Assembly (NCBI GenBank): GCA_023428515.1 | Contig: JAEYXI010000021.1 | Span: forward strand, 1-14,218 | Source: Pseudomonadota bacterium | Lineage (GTDB): Bacteria > Pseudomonadota > Alphaproteobacteria > Rhizobiales > Rhizobiaceae | Direction of reading: 5' to 3' | DNA length: 14,218 bases | Shown here: positions 45 to 12,877 of the stretch, one piece after another | Layout: the number at the start of each line of letters is the position of its first letter | Position numbering within the stretch: position 1 is the stretch's first letter | Notes under the pieces: model-generated | Told to the model about the DNA's origin: nothing | What the model saw: only the letters and a program-made list of their open reading frames with translations | The model's database searches: none | Made by a program: the position numbers and the translations under genes

Positions 45-1127
45 TCAGCGCAGCCCGCTCATTTCGCTCCACATGCGGACGAATTCCTTGCGACGGGTGA
101 GCAACTCGGGAGATTCCTTGAGAAACATGAGCTTGAGTTCGGAGATGGGCAGGCCGCCGGGCGGCGGCGCGACATCGGTGCGAGGGGAATGCAGAAAGAC
201 GTTCTCAGCCTGCACTTTCTGTCCCAAAGGGGAGAGGAACCAGTCCAGGAACAATCGCCCGGCTTCCGGGTTTGGCGCCTGTGTGGTTACGCCCCAGATC
301 TCCGGCCCGGCCGGCAAACCATCGCTGGGCGCGATGAATTCCATGGGAGCGCCCTTTTGCCGATACAAAAGGTATCCTGAATACTGCGCGGTGACCGCAA
401 GCTTGTCGTCACCATTGACGATGCGATCGTATTGCTGGACGTAGGAATCGAAGGCTTTCGGTTTCAGCTCGGCGAATTTTCTCCAGAACTCGTCACCGCC
501 ATTGGCTCTTCCGACCAACTCCCAGGTCAGGAATTGCAGACCGGAATTGCTCGATTTGACGCTCACCGCGCCACTCCACAACGGGTTGTTGATTTCGGCC
601 CAGGTCTTCGGCAATTCCTCTGGTTTGAGCACCGCAGGGTTATAGGCGAAGCCAGCCATGATGACTGCGCCCCAGGTCCACAGCCCTTCCGGATCGCTCT
701 TGTACACGTCGGAAAATTTACTCAGTTGCGGCGAAGCATATTGCGCGAAGCCGTCCTTGCTCTGGAAGTCGTAGACCAAGGTCTGATCCGACATATGAAG
801 AACGTCGGCGAGATAGCTGCCGGCCTGCCGTTCAGCCATGAGGCGGGCATAAAGCGCGCCGGTCTGAAGCCGGACATAGCTCGTCTTGATGTTTGGGAAG
901 AGCTTATTGAATTCTTCGAGAATCTTGACCGTTCCCATCTCGGGAGCAGGCGAATAAAGGACTAGGGCACCTTCCGCCTCGGCCTTGGCGACATCCGCGC
1001 ATGTGGTGAACCCCTTCACCTCCGTCGGAGCGGGACAGGCAGTGGCGCGCGGGTCGTCCTGTGCCCATGAGGGAGCGGCCAATCCCACTCCAATCAGCAT
1101 CAATCCAGCTCTGATGAGTTGTTGCAT
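45..1127 (-). CDS. ABC importer periplasmic substrate-binding protein, second copy (FbpA/AfuA-like)
   Basis: Predicted periplasmic binding protein of 360 aa for the importer encoded just upstream. The N-terminus (MQQLIRAGLMLIGVGL..APSWA) is a Sec signal peptide with a likely cut after Ala22. The mature part has an early Cys pair (C31 and C43 in the CPAPT..KGFTTC segment), a block with SYVRLQTGALYARLMAERQ, and a C-terminal LFLDWFLSPLGQ segment typical of the Fe(III)/thiamine/phosphonate-type binding-protein superfamily. It is a clear paralogue of the binding protein at 4058-5155, sharing most of these blocks. The ATG at 1127 is preferred over the upstream in-frame ATG at 1154 because GGGAGG lies six bases before it and the signal peptide then starts cleanly. 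It is the last gene of the operon, 27 nt after the ATPase. No adjacent Tyr-Tyr pair like that used by FbpA to bind ferric iron was found, so iron is not assured. The substrate is unknown. Confidence 0.88.
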   Translation of the reverse strand: MQQLIRAGLMLIGVGLAAPSWAQDDPRATACPAPTEVKGFTTCADVAKAEAEGALVLYSPAPEMGTVKILEEFNKLFPNIKTSYVRLQTGALYARLMAERQAGSYLADVLHMSDQTLVYDFQSKDGFAQYASPQLSKFSDVYKSDPEGLWTWGAVIMAGFAYNPAVLKPEELPKTWAEINNPLWSGAVSVKSSNSGLQFLTWELVGRANGGDEFWRKFAELKPKAFDSYVQQYDRIVNGDDKLAVTAQYSGYLLYRQKGAPMEFIAPSDGLPAGPEIWGVTTQAPNPEAGRLFLDWFLSPLGQKVQAENVFLHSPRTDVAPPPGGLPISELKLMFLKESPELLTRRKEFVRMWSEMSGLR

Positions 1128-1133
1128 TCTGAT

Positions 1134-1139
1134 CCTCCC
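1134..1139 (-). promoter_or_regulatory. Shine-Dalgarno GGGAGG fixing the start of the second binding protein
   Basis: Minus-strand GGGAGG lies six bases before the ATG at 1127. The two in-frame ATGs further upstream (1154 and 1145) have no comparable site, so this site sets the start. Confidence 0.7.
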
Positions 1140-1154
1140 GATCATTCCAATCAC

Positions 1155-2318
1155 TCAGCGTTCAGTTTCTTCGAGCAAGACGCAGTGTTCGGGTCCAAAA
1201 GCGATTGTGACCCTGTCCCCCTCGCCGATCAGTTCGGCAGGAGGCCGCCGTACGACGAGTTGACCTGGCGGCCAGTCGATGAGGTACTGCACGAAATCGC
1301 CATGAAACATTCGCCGCGCGACACGGCCTTCGATACGGTTCTCGCGGCTCGTGGCTGTCGGACCGATCCCGATATAGGCCGTGCGGATCGCGACCTGCGT
1401 TTCGTTGCCCTTCAACTCGCGCGGCGATATGGCCTTGAGCGTCAGGCCCGACTCCGTCTGGAAGTCAATAAGTCCGGTAGTCGTGTCGACCTGTACTACC
1501 CGCCCGCGAACCAGATTGGCCGAGCCGACGAAATCGGCGATGAAGCTGTTGCGGGGACGGTCGTAGATGTCTTCCGGGCCGCCAATCTGCTCGATGCGAC
1601 CATCGTTCATCACCACGACGCGGTCTGAAATGGCAAAGGCCTCTTCCTGATCGTGAGTCACATAGACGGAGCTGATGCCGAGCGTGCGTTGGAGATCCTT
1701 GAGTTCAACCCGCATCTCGCCACGCAGCTTTGCGTCAAGGTTCGAAAGAGGCTCATCGAAAAGGACAACCGTCGGCTCGAACGCGATCGCCCGCGCCAAC
1801 GCCACGCGTTGTTGCTGCCCTCCGGAAAGCTGCGAAGCCGGCCTGTCGGCGTAGCGTCGCATCTGCACGAGATCGAGCGCCTTCTCGACCGCGGCGCGTA
1901 AAGCGTCGCTCGAAATTTTTCGCACGCGCAAGCCGTAGGCGACATTGTTGAAGACAGTCATGTGCGGCCAGATCGCATATGACTGGAAGACCATCGACAC
2001 CCCCCTCTTTTCGGTGGGAACGTTGATGTGCTGGCTGGATGAGTAAACCGGCCGCCCGTCAATTCGAATCTCGCCACTGAACGGCTCTTCCAGCCCCGCA
2101 ATAGAGCGAAGCGTGGTGGTCTTGCCGCATCCCGAGGGACCAAGAAGCGTGAGGTGCTCTCCTTTGGGAATGTCGAAGCTGACGCCTCGGACCGCGGTGT
2201 GGGCGCCATATTTGATAACGAGATCCGAAATCGAAATGTGCTTGTCTTGCGGCGAAACCGCATCATCCGTCTCGGTTCGGGCCGGTTTCAGTGCTTCTTT
2301 CAACTGGACCTGGCTCAT
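1155..2318 (-). CDS. ABC importer ATP-binding subunit (FbpC/PotA-like, with TOBE domain)
   Basis: Cytoplasmic ATPase of 387 aa that powers the importer. The nucleotide-binding domain has Walker A GPSGCGKT at residues 60-67, Q-loop Gln112, signature LSGGQQQR at 164-171, Walker B VVLFDEP near 184-190, D-loop SNLDAKLR and switch His222 in VTHDQEEA. The last ~110 residues form a TOBE-like substrate/regulatory domain, as in FbpC, PotA and PhnT type ATPases. The start at 2318 is set by AGGGAG six bases upstream and by the ATGA overlap with the permease stop; the open frame extends further upstream but there it only shadows the permease. Length and all motifs are intact. The subunit pairs with the permease directly upstream; the family does not settle the substrate. 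Confidence 0.93.
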   Translation of the reverse strand: MSQVQLKEALKPARTETDDAVSPQDKHISISDLVIKYGAHTAVRGVSFDIPKGEHLTLLGPSGCGKTTTLRSIAGLEEPFSGEIRIDGRPVYSSSQHINVPTEKRGVSMVFQSYAIWPHMTVFNNVAYGLRVRKISSDALRAAVEKALDLVQMRRYADRPASQLSGGQQQRVALARAIAFEPTVVLFDEPLSNLDAKLRGEMRVELKDLQRTLGISSVYVTHDQEEAFAISDRVVVMNDGRIEQIGGPEDIYDRPRNSFIADFVGSANLVRGRVVQVDTTTGLIDFQTESGLTLKAISPRELKGNETQVAIRTAYIGIGPTATSRENRIEGRVARRMFHGDFVQYLIDWPPGQLVVRRPPAELIGEGDRVTIAFGPEHCVLLEETER

Positions 2319-4042
2319 GTTTCGCTCCCTTGCTTTGACAGTCGCGACGTCACCCAGAACATGAGCATGACAGCGATGAAGATCGTCAGGGTCTGGATCA
2401 CGGCCATGGCTGCCGTGAGCTCGGTTCCGGCGCTGGACCATGAGCTGACGATAGCGGGCGCAATCACCTTCGAGTTCGGTCCCATGAGATAGATCGAGAC
2501 ACCGAGTTCGCGGACGCTGGCGATGAAGAGAAGCAGCCATGCCGCCAGGATGCCTGGCCTCAGAAGCGGCAGCGTTATGGTGCGCAACTGATACGTCCAG
2601 GACGCACCGCAGACCCGAGCACATTCCTCCAGACTCTTGTCGACCTGCAGCACGACGCCCGCCAAAGTCCGCACACCGAGCGGCAATAGAACGGTGAAAT
2701 AGCCGATGCCGAGCAGCCAAAGCGTCCCGTAGAGCGAAACAGGCATGTTGAGCCACGCCCAGAGGATCGCAAGGCCGAACACCATGCGCGGAACGGCCTG
2801 CGGGAACATGACGATGTACTCGATGAGGCCGGCTCCCGGCATCCGCGAGCGGTAAATGATCCAGACGAGAAGGACCATGACGAAGACGCCGACCGTCGCG
2901 GTGCCAACGCCCAGGATGAGGCTGTTGACGATCGCGTCACGCACCGACGCGAGGCTGAATGCGGTGACATAGTTCTGCAGCGTGAACTGGGCCTGATGCA
3001 TCAGGACCGTCGCGAACCGCTGGAAGGATGTGAGCAGCAATGCGCCGAGGGGCAACGCAACGGCCACCAGCACATAGAGCCAGCAGAAACCGGCCAGTAC
3101 CCATGTCCAGCGCCCCATTTGCATCCGGCGGGGCCTGAAGGCCTTTCCGGAAATGGTCGAGTAGGCTCCCCTCCTGACCAGCCAGCGATAAAGCGCCAGC
3201 GTGGCGAACATGATCACAAACAGCGAAATCCCAAGAGCCGAAGCTCGGCCATAGTCTGGAGGATAGGACAGCGTGAGTTCCCAGATCGCGGTCGTGATGA
3301 CGTAGAAATGGCCGGGGATTCCAAGCACAAGCGCGGCGGCGAACGAACCGAGCATTTCGGCGAAAACGAAGATAGCGGCGCCGAGGACGCCGGGCGCAAC
3401 CAGGGGCAGCGTCACGGTGATCATCGTGCGGAGCTTGCTGGCGCCCATTACGCGAGCGCCTTCCTCCAACGCGGGATCCATTGATTTCATCGCCGCCGAT
3501 ATCATGACGAAGGCGACGCTTCCCTCGAAGAGGGCCATGACCCAGGCGACTCCCATGGGAGTGTAGACGTCGAAGATGCTGCCCGTACCGCCCAAATAAA
3601 CCCAGGCTTGATTCAGGAACCCGCTTTGCGGCGCTGCCAGAATGCTCCAGGACAGTGCGCCGACGAGCGGCGTCACGTAGAACGGCACTTCCATCAGGCG
3701 CTCCAGGACGGCGCGGCCTGGAATTTCGGTCCGGGTCAATATCCAGGCGAGGATAAAGCCGATTGCGATGGCTATTCCCGTCGAGAACAAAGCCACTTTC
3801 AGGGTGTTGGCGATAATGCGCCAGTCGAAGAGCATGTTCACGTAGTTGCCGAAGCCGACGCGCTCGGGCGGGAAAACTTGCGGGTCGCCGACGTTTAGCG
3901 ATTCCGCAAACAGGAAGAACAGCGGATAGATGACCAGGGCACCGCAGATCAGCAGGATCAGGAACGTGATCACGCCCTGCGAAGTGAAGCCGAGGCCGCG
4001 CGTCGAAAACGCGGCTTCGCCGTCCATCGATTGAAGAGCCAA
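2315..4042 (-). CDS. ABC importer permease, double-length FbpB-like fusion
   Basis: Inner-membrane permease of 575 aa in which two transmembrane units are fused in one chain, as in FbpB-type iron and related importers. Two EAA loops that dock on the ATPase are visible: EEGARVMGASKLR...TLPLVAPG at about 193-218 and EECARVCGASWTY...TLPLLRPG at about 472-497. Hydrophobic segments fill both halves, with a basic linker near 300-312. The predicted start is a TTG at 4042 with AGAGGA seven bases upstream; an in-frame ATG at 4027 has no site at a usable distance, so TTG is preferred, which would remove or add only five residues. It begins 15 nt after the upstream binding protein and its stop overlaps the ATPase start in ATGA, so the genes are likely translationally coupled. 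Confidence 0.92.
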   Translation of the reverse strand: MALQSMDGEAAFSTRGLGFTSQGVITFLILLICGALVIYPLFFLFAESLNVGDPQVFPPERVGFGNYVNMLFDWRIIANTLKVALFSTGIAIAIGFILAWILTRTEIPGRAVLERLMEVPFYVTPLVGALSWSILAAPQSGFLNQAWVYLGGTGSIFDVYTPMGVAWVMALFEGSVAFVMISAAMKSMDPALEEGARVMGASKLRTMITVTLPLVAPGVLGAAIFVFAEMLGSFAAALVLGIPGHFYVITTAIWELTLSYPPDYGRASALGISLFVIMFATLALYRWLVRRGAYSTISGKAFRPRRMQMGRWTWVLAGFCWLYVLVAVALPLGALLLTSFQRFATVLMHQAQFTLQNYVTAFSLASVRDAIVNSLILGVGTATVGVFVMVLLVWIIYRSRMPGAGLIEYIVMFPQAVPRMVFGLAILWAWLNMPVSLYGTLWLLGIGYFTVLLPLGVRTLAGVVLQVDKSLEECARVCGASWTYQLRTITLPLLRPGILAAWLLLFIASVRELGVSIYLMGPNSKVIAPAIVSSWSSAGTELTAAMAVIQTLTIFIAVMLMFWVTSRLSKQGSET

Positions 4043-4049
4043 TGTCTCT

Positions 4050-4055
4050 TCCTCT
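4050..4055 (-). promoter_or_regulatory. Shine-Dalgarno AGAGGA supporting a TTG start for the permease
   Basis: Minus-strand AGAGGA ends seven bases before TTG at 4042 and is about 22 bases from the in-frame ATG at 4027, too far to serve it. This argues for the rare TTG start. Confidence 0.5.
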
Positions 4056-4057
4056 GC

Positions 4058-5155
4058 TTACTGGAGTCCGGACATGGAGCGCATCTGGCGCAGGAAGTCG
4101 GGCCTGGTCGCCGCATAGGCCTGCCAGTCTGCAGGGAACAGCAGCTTCATCTCGCTGAGCGGAAGCGCACCGTCCGGCGGCGCCACATCCTCCCGCGGCG
4201 AATGGAAATACCAATGCGCGACCGACGCCTTCTGGCCTTCGGTGGAGAGGTACCAATCGAGGAAGAGGCGAGCCGCATTGGGATGCGGCGCCTCCTTGAC
4301 CACGCCGGCAACCTCGGGTCCCGACGGCAGACCCGAAGCGGGAGCGACGAAGGCGATGGGTGCGCCTTTGGCGCGGTATTCCAGATAGGCTGCATATTGT
4401 GCAGTCATTGCGACTTTGTCCTCGCCGTTCACGAGACGGTCGAACTGCTGGACCATCGAATCGAAGGCGCGCGGCTTCAGCTCGGCAAACTTCTCCCAGT
4501 ACTGCGGATCCACATGCTCCTTGATCTGATACCAGGTGACGTGCTGCATCCCCGAATTGGCGGACTTCATGCTGACGACGCCCTGCCATTTCTGGTCAAG
4601 GAGGTCATTCCAGTCCTTTGGAACTTCCGCTTCCGGAGTAACCTGGGGATTGTAGGCAAGTCCCGCGGGCATCAGCACGGCCCAGGTCCAGTAGCCCTCG
4701 GGGTGGCTCTTGTATTCCGCCTTGTAGGCTTTCATCTCCGGCGAAACGTAGCGCGAATATCCGCCGCGTTTCTGGAAATCCATCACAAGCCCGACATCGC
4801 CAATCTGGAAGACGTCGGCCAGGTAGGATTGTCCTTGTCGCTCGGCAAGAAGCCGTGCGTAGAGCGCACCCGCCTGGAGACGCACGTAGCTGGTCTTGAT
4901 CTTGGGATATAATTTCTCGAAACCCTGAAGCACCTTTACGGTGCCGCTCTCGATGTCGGTGGCATAGAAAACGAGTTCGCCCTCCGCCTCCGCCTTGTCG
5001 ATGTCGGCGCAAGTCATGAAGCCTTTCGCCTGGGTTGGGCTCGGACAAACGGCATCGGCGTCCGGGATTCCTTCCTGCGCGGCCGCAGGAGCAAGGAAGG
5101 AGGCCGCGACCAGCAATGTGGCCAATCCAACGTTCAGATAATTGCAGGTACGCAT
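4058..5155 (-). CDS. ABC importer periplasmic substrate-binding protein, first copy (FbpA/AfuA-like)
   Basis: First gene of the importer operon, 365 aa. A signal peptide (MRTCNYLNVGLATLLVAASF..APAAA) is probably cut after Ala26. Mature landmarks are the Cys pair C37 and C49 in CPSPTQAKGFMTC, the SYVRLQAGALYARLLAERQ block and LFLDWYLSTEGQ near the C-terminus. The same landmarks occur in the copy at 45-1127, with the same 11-residue Cys spacing, so the two arose by duplication. The ATG at 5155 has GGGAGG six bases upstream; an in-frame GTG at 5173 lies before that site and is rejected. Family members capture ferric ions, phosphonates, thiamine or polyamines in the periplasm; the substrate here is not readable from sequence. 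A palindromic candidate operator lies about 50 bases upstream. Confidence 0.9.
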   Translation of the reverse strand: MRTCNYLNVGLATLLVAASFLAPAAAQEGIPDADAVCPSPTQAKGFMTCADIDKAEAEGELVFYATDIESGTVKVLQGFEKLYPKIKTSYVRLQAGALYARLLAERQGQSYLADVFQIGDVGLVMDFQKRGGYSRYVSPEMKAYKAEYKSHPEGYWTWAVLMPAGLAYNPQVTPEAEVPKDWNDLLDQKWQGVVSMKSANSGMQHVTWYQIKEHVDPQYWEKFAELKPRAFDSMVQQFDRLVNGEDKVAMTAQYAAYLEYRAKGAPIAFVAPASGLPSGPEVAGVVKEAPHPNAARLFLDWYLSTEGQKASVAHWYFHSPREDVAPPDGALPLSEMKLLFPADWQAYAATRPDFLRQMRSMSGLQ

Positions 5156-5161
5156 CTTTCT

Positions 5162-5167
5162 CCTCCC
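5162..5167 (-). promoter_or_regulatory. Shine-Dalgarno GGGAGG fixing the start of the first binding protein
   Basis: Minus-strand GGGAGG lies six bases before ATG 5155. It falls inside any reading that starts at GTG 5173, which makes ATG 5155 the better start. Confidence 0.7.
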
Positions 5168-5206
5168 ATTCACGTCAAAATCTTATCGTTTCTGGATCGA
5201 TAATTA

Positions 5207-5496: not shown

Positions 5497-6051
5497 TCAG
5501 TCGCCGGCGGGATAAGGCCGGTTTTCCTGCAGTGGCAGGCCCGTGCTTTGCCAGCCGTCTGCTCCGGGCGGATACCAGATGACGGAAGTGTAGCCCCACT
5601 CGATAGCCCGTTTGGCGGCGTTCCAGGACATCCAGCAATTCGTCATGCAGTAGAACAGGATCGGCTTCGAATTGTCTGAAGCGGTATGCGTTTCAAGGCC
5701 CTCGCGGAAATACGCAGCCGTCTCATCGGGGATTGCACCGTAGCCCACATTGGCAAGCCAGATGCTATCGGGAATATCCTCTCTGACCTTGTCCTTCCAT
5801 ATCGTTCCGGCCGGCAGGTTCGCGGGCTTCGGCGTGTTGGGCATAACGTCGAAGAAGACGGCTTTCTTCTCCCGCCAGAGCGCTTCGGCTTCCTTCGTGC
5901 CGATCACCTTCGCCCCTTTCAGGGTGTCCGGCACCGGCGCCTTGTATTCGTCCATGCGATAGCCGGTCGGCTCTTCGATGCCACCTGCCTGCGCTGGCGC
6001 GGCGAAAGCCAGGCTCGCCACCGCGAACAACAGCACCATCTGCGTTCGCAT
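5497..6051 (-). CDS. Periplasmic rhodanese-like CxxxCW-motif protein of PQQ-dependent catabolism
   Basis: 184-aa exported protein. The signal peptide MRTQMVLLFAVASLAFAAPA is probably cut after Ala22. The mature part is a rhodanese-like fold: AEALWREKKAVFFDVMP early, then ILFYC135MTNC139W, followed by an SWNAAKRAIEWGY helix. The C-x3-C-W signature and length fit the TIGRFAM-type family 'PQQ-dependent catabolism-associated CXXCW motif protein', found beside quinoprotein alcohol dehydrogenase genes. A second Cys in the active loop departs from a simple rhodanese, which uses one Cys, and suggests a redox or persulfide role; this is inference. The ATG at 6051 begins five bases after the upstream stop and has only a weak ribosome site, so coupling to the SoxYZ-like gene is likely. 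A GTG at 6084 is rejected because the signal peptide would start late. Confidence 0.85.
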   Translation of the reverse strand: MRTQMVLLFAVASLAFAAPAQAGGIEEPTGYRMDEYKAPVPDTLKGAKVIGTKEAEALWREKKAVFFDVMPNTPKPANLPAGTIWKDKVREDIPDSIWLANVGYGAIPDETAAYFREGLETHTASDNSKPILFYCMTNCWMSWNAAKRAIEWGYTSVIWYPPGADGWQSTGLPLQENRPYPAGD

Positions 6052-6056
6052 ACTGG

Positions 6057-6908
6057 TCAAAGGCCCGTGGGATCGAGAGGCCACTTGTCGGTAAAAACCT
6101 TGCCGTCGGTGTCGATGGCTTCGACACGGATGTCGTCGTTGCCGTGCACGGCGAAATCGAAGCGGAAGTTGGGGTCTTCCGAGATCGAGATGCCACCCTC
6201 CATGGCGAGGATCAGCCGGTCGCCCTGCGAGATCGAGAGGTTCTGGACGAAATGCGCCGGGATGAAATACTGGGTCAGCGGGTCGCGCTGCAGGCCGGAA
6301 TTGTTCGGATGCCGGATCATCAGTTGCAGTTCCTGCGCCTTGGTCATCGATTCCTTCGGCGGCGCGAACTGGCGCAGCTTCATCTGCCCCATTGAGGCCA
6401 GCGCCTCCTTCGAGTTCTTGACTGCAGGCGCCGAGCAGCCGCCAGACGCCTTGACGAAGGTCTGCGACATATGGAGTTCGCCGCTGTCAGTCTCGGCGAT
6501 CACGCGCAGCCAGGAGTAGTCGTTGACGCGCACGCGCGTCGCCAGATGCGTGACGCCAGCATCCTTGCCGAGCTGGAACGTCGCTGCCACCGGCGCCGGG
6601 TTGACGTCGATGACCATCGTCACCTTCTTGACGCCGCCTGCCTTGGCCGGATCGATGTAGATATCCACGGGCACGAGCGCGGCATCCTGCGCGCGCTTAG
6701 GCGCTTCGATGCGGATGAGGCCGGTGTCGAGGAGGATCGGCCGGTCGCCGAGCACGTCGCCTTTCAGCGCGTTCCAGATCTTCTCTGACCCCGCCATGGA
6801 CTGTTGAGCAGACGCCGGTCCGGCGAACACCAGCGCGCCGCCTGTCGCAGCCACAAGGAGAAGCGTGGCCACGGAGCGCCGCAGCTTACAGAAAATGTTG
6901 GATCGCAT
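6057..6908 (-). CDS. Quinoprotein dehydrogenase-associated SoxYZ-like fused carrier protein
   Basis: 283-aa exported protein. A signal peptide with a long hydrophobic core is probably cut after Ala34 (GPASA/QQ). The mature chain joins a SoxY-like half (about 40-160) and a SoxZ-like half (about 170-283; MIRHPNNSGLQRDP and PAHFVQNLSISQGD are SoxZ-like). At the junction is FVKASGGC158SAP, the equivalent of the C-terminal GGC arm on which SoxY carries sulfur intermediates. C158 is the only Cys of the mature protein. The family occurs in methylotrophs beside PQQ dehydrogenases and not with full thiosulfate-oxidising sox operons; what it carries is unknown. GGAGG six bases before ATG 6908 supports the start. 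It lies 98 bases after the metallo-hydrolase gene and five before the CxxxCW gene. Confidence 0.88.
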   Translation of the reverse strand: MRSNIFCKLRRSVATLLLVAATGGALVFAGPASAQQSMAGSEKIWNALKGDVLGDRPILLDTGLIRIEAPKRAQDAALVPVDIYIDPAKAGGVKKVTMVIDVNPAPVAATFQLGKDAGVTHLATRVRVNDYSWLRVIAETDSGELHMSQTFVKASGGCSAPAVKNSKEALASMGQMKLRQFAPPKESMTKAQELQLMIRHPNNSGLQRDPLTQYFIPAHFVQNLSISQGDRLILAMEGGISISEDPNFRFDFAVHGNDDIRVEAIDTDGKVFTDKWPLDPTGL

Positions 6909-7006
6909 CGGTGCCTCCACCGGTTCGAAGGTGGTGCCCTGGCACATGCCAAGGATACTACCGGTCCCGCGCGATGGCAAATCGTCCGGCGGGTACCGTC
7001 TGGCCG

Positions 7007-7969
7007 CTACTCCCATTCCAGCTCGGCATAGGCAGCCGTCGCGTTGCGCTCGTTGTATTCGTCGAACAGCGCCCAGTTTGCCGCCTCGCTGCGCCCGGCG
7101 GTCTTGACCGCCTCGGCGAGAGGGACTCCTTCCTTGATCGCCTGGCGAAGATCGGCGGCAAGAACCTCGAAATAGCGCCGTTCCGGCTCCAGCGCGTCCG
7201 GCCATGCGCTTGATACCGGTCCGTGGCCGGGCACGACACGCTGGGCATCGATGCCGGCGAGCGTATCCATCTGCTTGAGCCAGCCGAGGAGCGAGCCGTC
7301 GATCGTCGGCAGGTGCCCCATGAAGACCAGATCGCCCGAAAAAAACGTGCCGCTCGCGGCGTCGAGAACGGTCAGGTCGTTGTCTGTGTGGGCGGCCTCC
7401 CAGGCCTTGAGTTGGAGCTTGCGCCCGCCAAGGTCGAGTTCCAGCACGTCGTCGACCAGGAGCGTCGGCGGCACGATCTCGATGCCTTCCATCAGCTTGT
7501 CACCGAGTTGTTCGCGATAGCTGTGCAGGTAATATTCGCCGCGCGCCTCCAGCGCCGCCGGCAGGTTCTGGTGGCCGACGATATCAGGACCAAGCGAGCG
7601 GAACGCCGCGTTGCCGAAGATGTGGTCGGGGTGGACGTGGGTGTTGATCAGATAACGAACCGGCTTGGCTGTGATCTTCTTGATCGCAGCGATAAATGCC
7701 TGCCCCTCGGCGAGGCTGCCGCCGCTATCGATGACCGCGACTACATCCGAACCGACAACGACGCCCAGATTGCAGATCGCGCCCTCATTCTCCGGATGCA
7801 TCAACTCGTTGACGCCCTGAAAGGCGAAAACGCCGTCGGCTATCTCGCGAAGCGCTAAATCGGGGTCGGTCGCAGCGAAGGCTCGATGAGAAAGACAGCA
7901 GGGCAATATCGCGACGCCGAAGGAGGCGAGCCCCTTCATCATTCCGCGTCGGACCGGATCGATCGGCAT
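7007..7969 (-). CDS. Quinoprotein relay system zinc metallo-hydrolase (SoxH-like MBL fold, exported)
   Basis: 320-aa metallo-beta-lactamase-fold hydrolase with an intact two-metal site: H111-V-H113-P-D115-H116, H194 in AAHTDND, D213 in SGDLVF and H249 in PGHGP. It resembles SoxH and glyoxalase II-like enzymes and best fits the family named quinoprotein relay system zinc metallohydrolase 2. The N-terminus has VRRGMMKGLASFGVAIL followed by a likely cut near residue 32 (RAFA), which resembles a twin-arginine signal, so export of a folded metalloenzyme is plausible. ATG 7969 has GAGGT about eight bases upstream, which itself overlaps the region just after the fhcC stop; the gap to fhcC is only nine bases. 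It is therefore probably transcribed with the fhc genes. The substrate is unknown; thioester or persulfide hydrolysis would fit the fold. Confidence 0.88.
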   Translation of the reverse strand: MPIDPVRRGMMKGLASFGVAILPCCLSHRAFAATDPDLALREIADGVFAFQGVNELMHPENEGAICNLGVVVGSDVVAVIDSGGSLAEGQAFIAAIKKITAKPVRYLINTHVHPDHIFGNAAFRSLGPDIVGHQNLPAALEARGEYYLHSYREQLGDKLMEGIEIVPPTLLVDDVLELDLGGRKLQLKAWEAAHTDNDLTVLDAASGTFFSGDLVFMGHLPTIDGSLLGWLKQMDTLAGIDAQRVVPGHGPVSSAWPDALEPERRYFEVLAADLRQAIKEGVPLAEAVKTAGRSEAANWALFDEYNERNATAAYAELEWE

Positions 7970-7978
7970 CTTTCGACC

Positions 7979-8788
7979 TCAGGCCGGCAACAATATCTCA
8001 CCAAGGCCGAGGACGGCATTGTCCCCGCCGAACTTGCGCGGCGCCTTGCCGAGAAGCGGCCGCTTGAGGATGCCGTCGGCGACGAGATGGCGGTCGGTGA
8101 GCGCGGCAAACACGCTGTCCGGGGCACCGCTTTCGACGAAGCTCGGCGACAGGCTTTTCGGCGCGCGGTCGAGCAGGATCGAGCCGCGCCGCATCAGGTA
8201 GCCCGGCATCTCGCCGGCGCCCCCGGTCACCACCAGCGTGCCGGCGATCATGCGGCTGCCGGCATGGTCGCCGCAGCCTTTCAGCACCGCGATCAGCCCG
8301 CGCCGCATGCGGTCGGCGGCGAAGGCGCCTGCCCTGCCTCGCACGATCAGTACGCCGCCATTCATGCCGGCGAGCTCACCGGCCAAGGGCGCGCCGAGAT
8401 GGTCGCCGGCGTTGCCGAGAATTTCCAGCCTGCCGCCGCGCATGCCGGACCCAGCATGCGGCCCTGCATCGCCTTCGATCGTGAGCCGTCCGCCACGCAT
8501 GGCGCGCCCGGCCTGCGCGCCGACATCGCCGACGACGCGCACCGCGCCTTCCGCCATCCCTGTCGCCACGCCGTCGAAGCGGCTGCTGCCGCCTTCGAAC
8601 ACGAGGTTCCCGGCGTCGCTACCGGACACGCGAAAGATGTCGCCGACTGTCGATGCAAGCTTGGACTGGCCGAGCCTGATCGCCTGGACGGCGCGCTTGT
8701 CCAAACCCGCCAGGCCCTGCGGCGTCAGGGGCGAAAGGTCGAGGCGCTCGGGCGGCTCCCCGCGAAGCGTGAAGGTCAGCGCTTTCAT
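7979..8788 (-). CDS. fhcC: Formyltransferase/hydrolase complex subunit C
   Basis: 269-aa cytoplasmic subunit of the Fhc complex, homologous to FwdC/FmdC of archaeal formylmethanofuran dehydrogenase and to the C-terminal domain of glutamate synthase. About residues 55-205 are Gly-rich repeats of roughly 18-20 residues such as AGRAMRGGRLTIEGDAG and AGSGMRGGRLEILGNAG, which build a right-handed beta-helix. In methylotrophs FhcC is a structural partner of FhcA, FhcB and FhcD. The start ATG 8788 overlaps the fhcD stop in ATGA, with AAGGA upstream. Length is normal and the frame is intact. The next gene, the metallo-hydrolase, follows nine bases after the stop. Confidence 0.95.
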   Translation of the reverse strand: MKALTFTLRGEPPERLDLSPLTPQGLAGLDKRAVQAIRLGQSKLASTVGDIFRVSGSDAGNLVFEGGSSRFDGVATGMAEGAVRVVGDVGAQAGRAMRGGRLTIEGDAGPHAGSGMRGGRLEILGNAGDHLGAPLAGELAGMNGGVLIVRGRAGAFAADRMRRGLIAVLKGCGDHAGSRMIAGTLVVTGGAGEMPGYLMRRGSILLDRAPKSLSPSFVESGAPDSVFAALTDRHLVADGILKRPLLGKAPRKFGGDNAVLGLGEILLPA

Positions 8789-9693
8789 GGCAGCAGATCC
8801 TTCAGGTGATAGTGGAACTTGCCGAGCTTGCCGCCGTAATTGCCGGCGCTGATGCGCGATGCGCCCTTCCCCGGCCCGAGCTCGGTGACGGCCTTGATGC
8901 CGGCCCGCATGGCGGCGGCGACAGCGTCGCTGGTCTCGCCGTCGATGACGATTTCGAGCACGGCGTTGACGTCAGGACCAAGCTCGCTCTTCGTCACGCC
9001 GCGCAGCGTCGGCGAAAAGGCGTCGTTGGTCGACGCCGTCATGCCCTTGTATTTGCCTCCGACCTTCGAGCCCGAGCGCACGATGCCGCCCGGGAACGGC
9101 ATGATGGCGCCCCGCACCTCGTTGATCGCCGCCACGGCTGCCTCAGCTGCCGCAAGCGCCTTGGCGTTGCTGCCGGCGAGCAGCAGCAAATTGCCACCGC
9201 CGACCGCTTCCTTGGTCATGCCGACCGTCGCCTCGCAGACGAATTCGCCATCCATTACCGGCACGCGCCAGAAATGCCTGCCGCCCAGTTTTTTCGAGAT
9301 CTGCCAGCCGTCGCCCAAATAGCGCAGGGCCGCGCCGAGCTTCAGCTCATTCGGGCCGTCGAGGCCGGCGAAGCAGGCGCTGCCCGGCGAGGTCAGCACG
9401 CACTGGCCGACGCGGTTCTGCAACTGCTTCTGCAACTCGTCCGTACTGACCGCGAAGATCATGACGCGGCAGCCAGGACGGCCATCAGGGGTTTCCGATG
9501 GCGGCAGTTCGACATCGATCGCCGCCTCGCAGCCGCAGCCGATGACAGAGGTGGCAAAGCCGGTCATCGTGACGGCTGCCTGCCGCGCCCATTTGCGGTT
9601 CGGCCCGGTGATGACGAGCGCGGTGGCGCGCATGCCGAAAGCCTCGGCAAAGGTATCGTCGATCTGGACACCATTGACCTTCAGGCGCGGCAT
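8785..9693 (-). CDS. fhcD: Formylmethanofuran--H4MPT formyltransferase, Fhc complex subunit D
   Basis: 302-aa cytoplasmic enzyme, bacterial counterpart of archaeal Ftr and of similar length. It moves the formyl group from N5-formyl-H4MPT to methylofuran within the Fhc complex. Recognisable blocks are MPRLKVNGVQIDDTFAEAFG at the N-terminus, TSVIGCGCEAAID near 48-60, PDGRPGCRVMIF, and KYKGMTASTNDAFSPTLRG. The start ATG 9693 has AGGGAA about six bases upstream and lies 13 bases inside the end of fhcA; its stop overlaps fhcC by four bases. Such overlap suits a complex needing balanced subunits. No sign of truncation. Confidence 0.96.
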   Translation of the reverse strand: MPRLKVNGVQIDDTFAEAFGMRATALVITGPNRKWARQAAVTMTGFATSVIGCGCEAAIDVELPPSETPDGRPGCRVMIFAVSTDELQKQLQNRVGQCVLTSPGSACFAGLDGPNELKLGAALRYLGDGWQISKKLGGRHFWRVPVMDGEFVCEATVGMTKEAVGGGNLLLLAGSNAKALAAAEAAVAAINEVRGAIMPFPGGIVRSGSKVGGKYKGMTASTNDAFSPTLRGVTKSELGPDVNAVLEIVIDGETSDAVAAAMRAGIKAVTELGPGKGASRISAGNYGGKLGKFHYHLKDLLP

Positions 9694-11312
9694 GACACTT
9701 CCCTGAACGGCTCGTCGCGCGCTATGGCGGAATCGGGGAACGTAAACTTGCCGAGCGACAGTCCGTAACGGCGCTCGTGATAGTCGGTGAGCCGCTTGAC
9801 GATCGCGCGATCCGGCGGCGGGTTGAGCCGGAGCGCCCTGCCCCAGCGGTAGTGTGTGATCTCGCCGTCCTTGACGACGAGGTCGCCGTTCTTGAAGACC
9901 AGCGCTGCCCGGCCGAGCATTTTCGCGATGTCCTTGCCACGCCGATAGACGGCGACGTCGGCGAGGGCGCCGGCACCGAGATGGCCGCGATCCGCCAGCC
10001 CGAGCAGCTTGGCGGGGGCGGCGCGCGTCATGATGGCGATCTCCTCAAACGTGTATTCACGGTCGATAGAGGCGAGCGTCGAATGCGAGAGCGCAGCCTT
10101 GGACAGGGTCGACGCCATTTCATTGCGGGCGTCACGGTTCATCAGCAGTTCGAAAAGCTCAGGATAGACGGTGAAAGGCGCACCGTTCGGATGGTCGGTG
10201 GTGAAGAAGACACGCCACGGGTCGGTGATCAGCAGGAAAAGCTCGAGCCCGGCGGCCCATTGCACCGTGCCGTAATAATCCGGCCGATAGCGATAGGGCA
10301 CGATGCCGCCGCCATTGCCGTCGCCGTCATGGATGACGAACTTTTTTGGATGCGCCGTGCCACGCGCCGAGAACTGACGCATCACGTCAGACGATATGGT
10401 GACGGTCTGGCCGAACATGACCTGGCCGATGTCGATGGTAACTTCCGGCGTCGCGTTGACCAGTTCGGCCAGCCGCGCAGCGGCGGAGGAGAATTTTCGC
10501 TTCCCCTCCGTGCCGTAACCGTAGAATTGGAGATGCGCCAGGTGCAACGGCACACCTTCGGCCGCGGCGATCGTCGCAGCCGCCGTGTCCGCCGCGCCGG
10601 GCGCGCCGAGATTGTTGCAGTGGACATGCAGCGGATGCGGGATGCCAAGCTTGTCCACGGCCGCCTGCAGCGTCTTGACGATCTTGCGCGAGCTGACGCC
10701 GTAAGACGGCACGACGTCGTCGAGCGAGAAGATCCGCACATTCTCCTTGAAGGCGGCGGCGGCTCCGGCGTTGATTACCTTGACGCCGAGCGCCCGCGTC
10801 GAGGCGACCGTCCAGGCGACGTAGTCTTCGATCATGCGCGGCGAGGCGTTGTCGCGGATCATCGAGAGCAGGAAATCGTCATTGCCGAGAATGGCGAGCG
10901 TCGCCTTGTCGATGATCGGGATGTCGGCGAGTTCGAGATGGGTGTGAAGCGCGGCATTCGGCGACATGGCCGGCTCGACGACGGTGGTGAAGCCCATCCT
11001 CGCGTAGAGGCAGCCGGTCTCGAAGGTCGACCAGCCGGCATTGGAGAGCGGCGTCGCGGCGGGCCTTGCCTGATGCGCCTTGTGCTCTTCCGGCAGGAGG
11101 AGCCGCGCCGTGTTCACATTGCCGCCGCCGATATGGGAGTGGATATCTATGGCGCCGGCCATGACGATGCAGCCCGACGCATCGAAGGTCCGGTCGGCGC
11201 GCCCGCCGCGCGGCGCTTCGACGATCTGCTCGTCCTTGATCCAGAGGTCGCCCTTGCCGGTGCGGCCGCTCACCGGATCGACGATCTCGCCGCCCTTGAT
11301 CCTGGTCAGCAT
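9681..11312 (-). CDS. fhcA: Formyltransferase/hydrolase complex subunit A (formyl-methylofuran hydrolase)
   Basis: 543-aa amidohydrolase-family subunit that hydrolyses formyl-methylofuran to formate, the last step of H4MPT-linked formaldehyde oxidation. It is homologous to FwdA/FmdA. Metal-site candidates are H58 and H60 in DIHSHIGGGN, K178 in LGVKVINAG (position of the carboxylated lysine in FwdA), H231 in HVHCNN, and D373 in FFTTDHPNG. The open frame continues 200 codons upstream, but that part merely shadows fhcB; ATG 11312 gives the expected MLTRIKGGEIVDPVSG start and overlaps the fhcB stop by seven bases. The C-terminal tail overlaps fhcD by 13 bases. The residue roles are assigned by family homology, not shown here. 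Confidence 0.96.
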   Translation of the reverse strand: MLTRIKGGEIVDPVSGRTGKGDLWIKDEQIVEAPRGGRADRTFDASGCIVMAGAIDIHSHIGGGNVNTARLLLPEEHKAHQARPAATPLSNAGWSTFETGCLYARMGFTTVVEPAMSPNAALHTHLELADIPIIDKATLAILGNDDFLLSMIRDNASPRMIEDYVAWTVASTRALGVKVINAGAAAAFKENVRIFSLDDVVPSYGVSSRKIVKTLQAAVDKLGIPHPLHVHCNNLGAPGAADTAAATIAAAEGVPLHLAHLQFYGYGTEGKRKFSSAAARLAELVNATPEVTIDIGQVMFGQTVTISSDVMRQFSARGTAHPKKFVIHDGDGNGGGIVPYRYRPDYYGTVQWAAGLELFLLITDPWRVFFTTDHPNGAPFTVYPELFELLMNRDARNEMASTLSKAALSHSTLASIDREYTFEEIAIMTRAAPAKLLGLADRGHLGAGALADVAVYRRGKDIAKMLGRAALVFKNGDLVVKDGEITHYRWGRALRLNPPPDRAIVKRLTDYHERRYGLSLGKFTFPDSAIARDEPFREVSCRA

Positions 11313-12397
11313 GGCAGTTCCGCTCCCGCCGGGATGCGCTCGGCGATCGAGCGGAGGATCGACGCAGCCGAAGGAAGCTCCAAAGCCGCCTCCGCCGAAA
11401 CGGAGACCAGACTGCCGGTCCGGGCCGAATAGGTGACAGTGTCGTGGTCGACGCCGGATATGCCGATAGCGAAGGTGACCTCGGCGCCGGCGACCGGCCG
11501 TGATGCCTTGGTCATTGCGACCAGCTTTGCGCCGCCCCCGTTTGCGGGTGAGGTTTTCGCTTCGGCCGAAATCCAGAGGTGGAAGTCCGCCTCGCCTTCT
11601 GCGATCTGCCGCGCCGTTTCGAAGCGCCAGGGGTCGTATTCCGGAAAGCCGCGGGCGAAGCTGGTGCGCACGGGAAATCCGGTCATCCAGGTCGAGGCAA
11701 GCGTGCTGCCCCAGCCGCTTTCGCTTGCCGGCAGGTGCAGGGCGGAGGCGCGCGACTTGCGGTTGATGTCGGCGAGAAGCCCTTGCAGCATTTCGAGCGC
11801 CAGCGCGTCGGCGGAGTGGCCGGAAACCAGGAAGACCGGAAACTTGGCGTCCGCCAGCGTCTTCTGGAAGCGGGCGAAATTCGACACCGGGGCTGAAACC
11901 TGCCGCCCGGCGCACTGGGCGCGCAGCGCCGCAATTGTGGCGCCGAGGCCAGTTTTTCCGAGGGCAAGCCGGGTCGCCTTGCGGCCGCCGTTGAGCGGCA
12001 GTGCGGGTATTTTCCCGTTGCCGATGAAGAAGAATTCGCGTGTGTTGCGGGCGGTGAGATCGGGAACGGTCTCGGCGAGTTCCGCCACGTAGCCGTGATG
12101 GATGTCCGGCACTTCGCCGACGATCGCCACGACATCAGCACGCCGGCGCACCTCTCCGGGCGCGACGAACATGCCGCCTCTATCGGTAAGGAGCGCCGTT
12201 TCGTGAGCGAGCCCGGCACCGTTCAGGTGGTCGTACGAAGCTCCCACCCGCTCGGCGAGCGCGATCGCCGCGCGTGTGCCATGTATATCCGTGTCGAAGC
12301 TGAAAACCGGGCACCGGCTCGAATGCAACAGCGCGGCGGCATGCCGGACCGCGCGCTCCAACAGAGTCTCCCGGTTGCCGATCCAAGCAACCGCCAT
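11306..12397 (-). CDS. fhcB: Formyltransferase/hydrolase complex subunit B
   Basis: 363-aa subunit homologous to FwdB/FmdB, the molybdopterin subunit of archaeal formylmethanofuran dehydrogenase. As known for methylotroph FhcB, no Cys cluster motif for an iron-sulfur centre is visible; only isolated Cys residues occur (C29, one near the middle, and the last residue), so it should be a non-redox scaffold in a complex that hydrolyses rather than reduces. Landmarks are CPVFSFDTDIHGTRAAIALA near the N-terminus and VSGHSADALALEMLQGLLAD in the middle. ATG 12397 has a poor ribosome site, and translation may depend on an unusually short leader. It is the first fhc gene, 99 bases after the dehydratase gene, and overlaps fhcA by seven bases. 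Confidence 0.93.
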   Translation of the reverse strand: MAVAWIGNRETLLERAVRHAAALLHSSRCPVFSFDTDIHGTRAAIALAERVGASYDHLNGAGLAHETALLTDRGGMFVAPGEVRRRADVVAIVGEVPDIHHGYVAELAETVPDLTARNTREFFFIGNGKIPALPLNGGRKATRLALGKTGLGATIAALRAQCAGRQVSAPVSNFARFQKTLADAKFPVFLVSGHSADALALEMLQGLLADINRKSRASALHLPASESGWGSTLASTWMTGFPVRTSFARGFPEYDPWRFETARQIAEGEADFHLWISAEAKTSPANGGGAKLVAMTKASRPVAGAEVTFAIGISGVDHDTVTYSARTGSLVSVSAEAALELPSAASILRSIAERIPAGAELPC

Positions 12398-12496: not shown

Positions 12497-12877
12497 TCAA
12501 TCGTATTTGACATAGGCGAAACGCTGGTCGCCCTGGGGCGTGCCCTCAAGCGCGCCGCCTTCGCTGCCCGGCTGCCACTGGACGACGTCCTCGATCTTCT
12601 TCGCCAACTGGAAATCCTTGTCGGTGATGCCTTTTGCCGCATGATTCATCAGCCGCACTTCGACCCAGGCATAGGACGCCGTGATGTCGGGATGATGCCA
12701 GGCAGCTTCCGCCAGATGGCCGACCGTGTTGATGACCATCAGCGTCGATTTCCAGCTGTGCGTCTTGTATTTCCTGCGTATCCAGCCGTTTTCGTAGCGC
12801 CAGTTCGGCAGTTCCTTCTGCAGCCTCTCGGCGATTTCCGTCTCCGAATAGACCTTCTCCTTGACCTTCTCGTTCAT
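12497..12877 (-). CDS. pcd: Pterin-4a-carbinolamine dehydratase in an H4MPT gene cluster
   Basis: 126-aa cytoplasmic protein of the PhhB/DCoH family. The signature E-x3-H-H-P-x5-Y-x9-H-x8-D is complete: H61, H62, P63, Y69, H79 and D88 counted from the chosen start, within AEAAWHHPDITASYAWVEV and NHAAKGITDKD. Ordinary family members dehydrate 4a-hydroxy-tetrahydrobiopterin after aromatic hydroxylation; in methylotrophs such genes sit among H4MPT genes and a role in making or repairing that pterin is inferred. After the core there is a tail of ~25 residues (QWQPGSEGGALEGTPQGDQR) not seen in the minimal ~100-residue fold. ATG 12877 has GGAGG five bases upstream; GTG 12889 is rejected because the ribosome site would lie inside the gene. 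It is divergent from the beta-RFAP synthase gene. Confidence 0.9.
   Translation of the reverse strand: MNEKVKEKVYSETEIAERLQKELPNWRYENGWIRRKYKTHSWKSTLMVINTVGHLAEAAWHHPDITASYAWVEVRLMNHAAKGITDKDFQLAKKIEDVVQWQPGSEGGALEGTPQGDQRFAYVKYD

Follow-up and report, generated by a model that had tools for sequence, protein, structure and literature searches.

A 14,218-nucleotide stretch of DNA from a bacterium of the Rhizobiaceae (contig JAEYXI010000021.1; hereafter the window) carries, directly behind the fhc operon for formaldehyde oxidation, three genes that encode a SoxH-like zinc metallo-hydrolase, a SoxYZ-like carrier, and a CxxxCW rhodanese-like protein. We propose that these genes are the known quinoprotein trio, relocated, and that they sustain a one-cysteine, reductively recharged thiol/sulfur carrier cycle that services the pyrroloquinoline quinone (PQQ)-dependent methanol dehydrogenase XoxF rather than a one-carbon (C1) step coupled to Fhc, a reading that we consider about equally liable to be right or wrong.

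The carrier follows the PQQ dehydrogenase. We surveyed 397 genomes of the order that includes the sister genome of the window, Mesorhizobium sp. YM1C-6-2 (locus L001, genome G001); the order is Hyphomicrobiales, a name we infer. The carrier exceeds its family cut-off in 127 of them, 76 with and 51 without fhcD, and 99 others with sub-cut-off matches only were left aside. A PQQ dehydrogenase over the cut-off is present in 75/78 fhcD genomes; the exceptions, identified from E-values, are G056, G093, and G387, and the first two are also the only fhcD genomes that lack the carrier. Among carrier-positive genomes, the dehydrogenase accompanies 75/76 with fhcD and 36/36 without it (111/112 together; the 36 are those listed of the 51), and among carrier-negative genomes it is found in 0/2 and 2/19, respectively (2/21 together; the 19 are listed genomes without a match, excluding the fhcD-positive G056). 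These counts are not independent because the genomes are related, and fhcD and the PQQ dehydrogenase also co-occur; wherever the two part, the genome sides with the dehydrogenase, G387 being the one exception. Physical linkage points the same way: of the 56 carrier loci flanked by a full 10 kb, 49 have a PQQ dehydrogenase within that distance. The seven others are L001, L038, L043, L045, L064, L069, and L075; L038 (a Hyphomicrobiales metagenome-assembled genome) and L045 (Bradyrhizobium jicamae) have the trio together with xoxJ.

The proteins themselves belong to families named for this association. The hydrolase scores 414 bits against a cut-off of 280 for TIGR04559 (quinoprotein relay system zinc metallohydrolase 2; NCBIfam) and also matches Pfam Lactamase_B. 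Its residues H111, H113, D115, H116, H194, D213, and H249, which we take to be the zinc ligands of the superfamily, are kept in 78/78 rows of an alignment that joins the window protein to caller-found genes from 80 genome loci (77 for the hydrolase, 82 for the carrier, and 63 for the rhodanese-like protein). Structure comparison of its AlphaFold2 model (predicted local distance difference test [pLDDT] score, 91.5) gave 8d2z and the chlorothalonil dehalogenase 6uxu as the nearest solved folds. The carrier, at 281 bits against a cut-off of 140 for TIGR04557 (quinoprotein-associated SoxYZ-like), combines Pfam SoxY (residues 51-158) and SoxZ (190-275) domains in a single chain, and the cysteine of its GGC motif, C158, sits between the two halves and is kept in 83/83 rows; PDB matches to its model (pLDDT, 82) include SoxY and SoxZ chains, and the many immunoglobulin folds in the same Foldseek list were set aside. 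The third protein matches TIGR03865 (PQQ-catabolism CXXCW protein) with 219 bits against a cut-off of 128 and Pfam Rhodanese with 24.4 bits against 22.2; C135, C139, and W140 are kept in 64/64 rows. All three are apparently exported, as each begins with a hydrophobic stretch that, judged by eye, resembles an export signal.

The initial annotation held that no named pathway covers these proteins. That is true of their chemistry, whereas the trio itself is already in print as quinoprotein associated, with maturation and sulfur-protection hypotheses in PMC12997753 and PMC11237559 and a remark in PMC11582611. According to PMC12997753, the same three families are tied to PQQ alcohol dehydrogenases in the Pseudomonas putida ped cluster (PP_2666/PP_2677/PP_2678) and in Methylobacterium extorquens AM1 (META1p1703-1705), where they are said to share an operon with a gene for a thioredoxin-like protein in the vicinity of xoxFGJ. 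The present block differs from both in standing behind fhcC and, for the sister genome, in lying on a contig other than that of xoxFGJ. Lucinid symbionts have a fused SoxYZ (SoxYZ-S4) near soxH and a methanol dehydrogenase gene, xoxF; SoxYZ-S4 was proposed to protect the dehydrogenase from thiosulfate, and a clade-4 homolog exists in Hyphomicrobium denitrificans (PMC11237559). Unlike the window, this system is given no fhc linkage in the available excerpts of that paper.

The features of the window that concern the argument, in the order of the minus strand, are as follows.

12497..12874, minus strand: pterin-4a-carbinolamine dehydratase-like gene (PCD), head of the operon; NF002017 over cut-off, Pfam Pterin_4a.
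11306..12397, minus strand: fhcB, short form; TIGR03129 at 103 bits, below the cut-off of 328, with assignment by operon position.
9681..11309, minus strand: fhcA, with a TTG start; TIGR03121 over cut-off.
8785..9693, minus strand: fhcD; TIGR03119 over cut-off.
7979..8788, minus strand: fhcC; TIGR03122 over cut-off.
7007..7969, minus strand: SoxH-like zinc metallo-hydrolase; TIGR04559.
6906..6980, minus strand: conserved soxYZ leader, comprising a promoter-like TTGCCA-17-TATCCT (6980-6952) and an inverted repeat, GGGCACCACC...GGTGGAGG, that reaches the start codon.
6057..6908, minus strand: fused SoxYZ-like carrier; TIGR04557.
5497..6051, minus strand: CxxxCW rhodanese-like protein; TIGR03865.

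The window thus has the fhcB-A-D-C operon of the bacterial Fhc complex, with FhcB under the TIGR03129 cut-off; the bacterial subunit is a shorter form. PCD occupies the same spot ahead of fhc in most relatives compared. As first described, fhcC is followed on the same strand by the hydrolase, carrier, and rhodanese-like genes after spacers of 9 (7970-7978), 98 (6909-7006), and 5 (6052-6056) bases, and coordinates and family scores agree on this. The layout cannot be put down to faulty assembly, because L001 shares all eight genes (PCD, fhcB-A-D-C, and the trio) in identical order at 79-95% identity; for the seven genes from fhcB to the rhodanese-like gene, the ratio of nonsynonymous to synonymous substitutions (dN/dS; NG86) between the two genomes is 0.06-0.19. 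The window is Mesorhizobium-like, the best 120 SoxYZ proteins being 73-95% identical to its own and mostly from Mesorhizobium where the source is named. Of four genomes in the genus of the sister genome, one matches the SoxYZ-like carrier.

One sister genome shares this arrangement. Among 80 carrier loci, the best of 559, fhc falls within the fetched flanks in two: L001, with the order of the window, and L061, where the genes are convergent and xoxF is present. The trio is not behind fhcC in 10 of the 11 relatives read past that gene: nine relatives with at least 12 kb beyond it (L124, L128-L135) have other genes after fhcC, as does a plasmid of Rhizobium gallicum (L139, ~6 kb), and the eleventh is L061, where the trio is convergent and beside xoxF; the sequence of L127 stops 0.6 kb past fhcC. 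All 33 relatives searched have fhcD, and nowhere in the plasmid records was as much as 80% of the block covered. Genes in these neighborhoods come from a codon-usage caller and were labeled by blastp against proteins of the window and of the sister genome; the labels DUF2380, pedX, pedA1-like, and ORF117 have no family support, NCBIfam and Pfam checks having covered a subset.

We conclude that the trio left two sites and regrouped as a compact block behind fhcC inside one methylotrophy island, a course that gene order documents for the sister genome and that we infer for the window. In Mesorhizobium mediterraneum, a single contig carries xoxF, a 117-residue open reading frame (orf), soxYZ, soxH2, an ssuABC-like transporter, a cbb operon, and ped-like genes, continuing with fae, mch, mtdB, and PCD-fhcB-A-D-C, with fhcC last and 48 kb from xoxF to fhcC. 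Across Mesorhizobium relatives, soxH2-soxYZ lies between the ssuABC-like transporter and xoxF, the rhodanese gene lies between xoxJ and pqq (pqqB in M. mediterraneum, L004), and the trio brackets xoxFGJ. An annotated Phyllobacterium zundukense plasmid has the order of M. mediterraneum around the PQQ dehydrogenase: hydrolase, SoxYZ-like carrier, hypothetical protein, PQQ dehydrogenase, cytochrome, substrate-binding protein, CXXCW protein, and pqqA-E. The sister genome keeps ssuBCA, orf117, xoxF-G-J, pqqB-E, and folP in this order, with xoxF, xoxG, xoxJ, pqqB, pqqE, and PQQ-type ABC genes over their NCBIfam cut-offs; soxH2-soxYZ is gone from between ssuB and the orf, where 64 bases remain, and the rhodanese gene is gone from between xoxJ and pqqB. 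A tblastn search for trio remnants at these old sites gave chance-level matches only (best E, 0.57). In G001, the PQQ dehydrogenase, the carrier, and the CXXCW gene each occur once; its dehydrogenase is on a contig other than that of the trio, and none is found in the 20.8 kb of L001 or among the window genes. Contig C5, with fhc and the trio, ends in the first 69 residues of a gene that lies near pedB/pedC in M. mediterraneum, and contig C50, with xoxF, ends in pedB/pedC-like genes; judging from these ends, the two probably abut, which would leave some 40 kb between xoxF and the trio. The SoxYZ and FhcD trees speak for a move instead of an import, both placing the window with L001 inside one group of Mesorhizobium (long outgroup branches flag the SoxYZ tree); horizontal import of the block was rejected on these trees. 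We found no account of the trio behind fhc in the literature searched, which left most subscription papers and papers joining tetrahydromethanopterin and SoxYZ unread; as far as this search goes, the relocation as a unit, the retained carrier leader, the co-occurrence counts, and the genes for CcdA and thioredoxin beside compact blocks in some genomes are new.

Two observations on the surroundings may be added. A small protein with a signal-like start, a CSCSIDVIAS motif, and no Pfam domain is encoded in 75/98 fetched SoxYZ sequences (some overlap), usually adjoining SoxYZ (L004:10829-11182, L061:10929-11282, L084:366-668, and others); in G001 it stayed with xoxF. On the far side of the trio, positions 45-5173 of the window hold ABC importer genes with two SBP_bac_6-type substrate-binding proteins; since these genes are unmatched in the 20.8 kb of L001, this side is a synteny break.

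How the relocated genes are expressed bears on what their position means. The initial annotation had the whole trio expressed together with formaldehyde oxidation. For the hydrolase, at least, this is very likely: it begins 9 bases past fhcC, so the spacer is too short for a promoter, and the gene is probably read together with fhc. For the carrier there is an alternative: the 98-base gap contains a promoter-like site and a leader, so that a single transcript from fhcB to the rhodanese-like gene is not the sole possibility. The leader consensus reads TTTGCCA-N-TATnnT, then GGGCACCRCC-N-GGTGGAGGC up to the ATG, with the inverted repeat extending as far as the ribosome-binding site and start codon. 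Of the 36 sequences examined (window, L001-L034, and L137), 34 contain the repeat block, L013 and L033 being the two without it; a loose pattern recovers the pair of boxes in the window and in 29/35 loci. A promoter scan returned three sites in 8.1 kb, one of them the soxYZ gap site, against a shuffle mean of 1.0, so that the site alone is weak evidence and its conservation the stronger part. The carrier thus retained its leader in the move. The leader may be a translational control element. The data do not establish an RNA structure: compensatory base changes are absent, no pair having changed on both sides, one pair alternates between A-U and G-U, and another is disrupted in one row; z-scores of four folds are -0.2 to -0.7, and Rfam had no match up to an E value of 0.1 for the leader in the window, L004, or L019.

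The retained leader, common to relatives, fits an alternative, namely, that the position is a neutral rearrangement with no regulatory tie between trio and fhc; the order and site of the trio vary among genomes, and one sister genome alone shares the present site. This alternative, compatible with any function, must nonetheless explain why three genes from two sites are now adjacent, tightly spaced, and on one strand, retained in two genomes with low dN/dS, and why the first of them starts so close to fhcC that no promoter fits. We regard it as somewhat doubtful.

Under our preferred reading of a carrier cycle that services XoxF, the trio would act as a single periplasmic cycle around the invariant cysteine of the carrier; that it acts as one unit is suggested because the lineage moved all three genes from xoxFGJ and kept them together. 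We posit that (i) reactive sulfur or thiol adducts, which would otherwise block PQQ or the vicinal disulfide of the enzyme, are loaded onto the carrier cysteine; (ii) the SoxH-like zinc hydrolase cleaves the oxo-sulfur group off the carrier; and (iii) the leftover sulfur or disulfide is handed on through the CxxxCW protein and removed reductively. The site behind fhc would tie the supply of the trio to formaldehyde oxidation, i.e., to growth on methanol, rather than make it a member of that pathway. Reductive clearing is proposed because some relatives have thioredoxin and CcdA genes next to the pair or the trio: by Pfam, a thioredoxin gene follows four of the five fetched compact SoxYZ-rhodanese blocks (L143, L144, L146, and L147), and a DsbD/CcdA-like gene stands beside three (L144, L146, and L147). 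A regulator gene also adjoins such blocks, Crp type in L146 and TetR type in L144. These neighbors resemble SoxV and SoxW of the canonical system, in which SoxV, a CcdA ortholog, reduces the thioredoxin SoxW and SoxS acts on SoxYZ, according to PMC10451225. Adducts of PQQ with sulfur have been proposed, and thiosulfate inhibits growth of H. denitrificans on methanol but not on formate (PMC12997753).

With the canonical Sox system (SoxXA, SoxB, SoxYZ, SoxV/W, and SoxS) the trio shares the carrier fold, the GGC cysteine, and, in some relatives, thioredoxin/CcdA genes by the block. It differs in that the carrier is fused, C158 lies inside the chain instead of on a C-terminal swinging arm as in canonical SoxY, and a SoxH-like hydrolase is in the operon. 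SoxB exceeds its cut-off in 5/33 carrier-bearing relatives and does not in 28/33, including the sister genome (110 against 550 bits); a part in canonical thiosulfate oxidation is thus unlikely.

Several points weigh against a carrier cycle serving XoxF. No SoxXA-like oxidase that could load the cysteine was seen in the cluster, the genome not having been searched for SoxXA. Of 98 fetched sequences with SoxYZ, some of them overlapping, 4 have thioredoxin/CcdA neighbors, none of these from Mesorhizobium, and compact block L145 has neither gene. Seven of the 56 fully flanked loci, L001 included, are without a PQQ dehydrogenase within 10 kb; G387 (1.9 Mb, completeness not given) has the carrier and no such enzyme over the cut-off; two carrier-negative genomes have the enzyme; and the dehydrogenase test, run on related genomes whose counts are not independent, leaves out the 99/397 with sub-cut-off carriers. 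No xoxF is in view in the window itself, the enzyme having been seen in the sister genome. Random-barcode transposon sequencing of P. putida gave minimal phenotypes for the three genes when rare earths were absent, as reported in PMC12997753.

The trio could instead mature the dehydrogenase, making or isomerizing the vicinal disulfide of XoxF or delivering sulfur or metal via the CxxxCW protein and the carrier, with the hydrolase freeing the carrier. Maturation or redox control was proposed in PMC12997753 because such dehydrogenases have adjacent cysteines; the tracking of PQQ dehydrogenases by the carrier and the thioredoxin/CcdA neighbors in some genomes fit it as well. The same source notes, however, that the Pseudomonas aeruginosa enzyme has the disulfide, yet the trio is missing. 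The 2/21 carrier-negative genomes with a PQQ dehydrogenase point in the same direction, and a zinc hydrolase and a SoxYZ carrier would be, in our judgment, unusual tools for a disulfide. Maturation seems to us unlikely, if still a serious competitor.

Linkage to fhc led the initial annotation to suggest, as one possibility, that the trio handles a C1 adduct in step with formaldehyde oxidation. In this reading, periplasmic formaldehyde would end up on the carrier cysteine as an S-hydroxymethyl or S-formyl group, from which the hydrolase would release formate alongside cytoplasmic Fhc. The 9-base spacing to fhcC, kept in L001, is in its favor, and a metallo-beta-lactamase fold such as that modeled for the hydrolase could cleave a thioester. 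Of the 78 fhcD genomes (76 over the cut-off), 76 encode the carrier and 65 encode the CXXCW protein. The carrier and fhcD are on one contig in 49, within 20 kb of each other in 19, and within 10 kb in 15; in these 15, the carrier stands on the strand of fhcD, upstream (10) or downstream (2; G001 and G121) of it, or on the opposite strand downstream (3). The linkage therefore recurs, if loosely, but an xoxF-type gene stands beside the carrier in 14 of these 15 (at least 11 from the dehydrogenase listing and 3, G002, G304, and G318, from fetched neighborhoods), leaving G001 as the only genome with the trio at fhc and no such gene beside it. Furthermore, 51/127 carrier-positive genomes lack fhcD, both fhcD genomes without the carrier also lack a PQQ dehydrogenase over the cut-off, and the trio on Sinorhizobium medicae pSymB accompanies xoxF, with no fhc within the fetched 18 kb. 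Coupling of trio and fhc as a general rule is rejected on these counts, and the step from linkage to action on a C1 adduct or within the Fhc pathway is not supported, the carrier being nearly always found with a PQQ dehydrogenase. We hold the C1 chemistry to be improbable; its fullest version, a relay that catches formaldehyde from XoxF on the SoxYZ-like cysteine, has the SoxH-like enzyme hydrolyze the adduct to formate, relies on the CxxxCW protein for recharging, and is wired to Fhc in one operon, is a shade more so.

Returning to a thiol/sulfur carrier cycle in the service of XoxF, the chemistry of the trio matters for lanthanide-dependent methanol oxidation. Carrier counts that follow the PQQ dehydrogenase, and not fhc, together with the thioredoxin/CcdA neighbors narrow the search to a reductively recharged thiol/sulfur cycle serving the quinoprotein, and the lineage of the window offers a natural construct in which the trio could be removed as a unit without touching the dehydrogenase.

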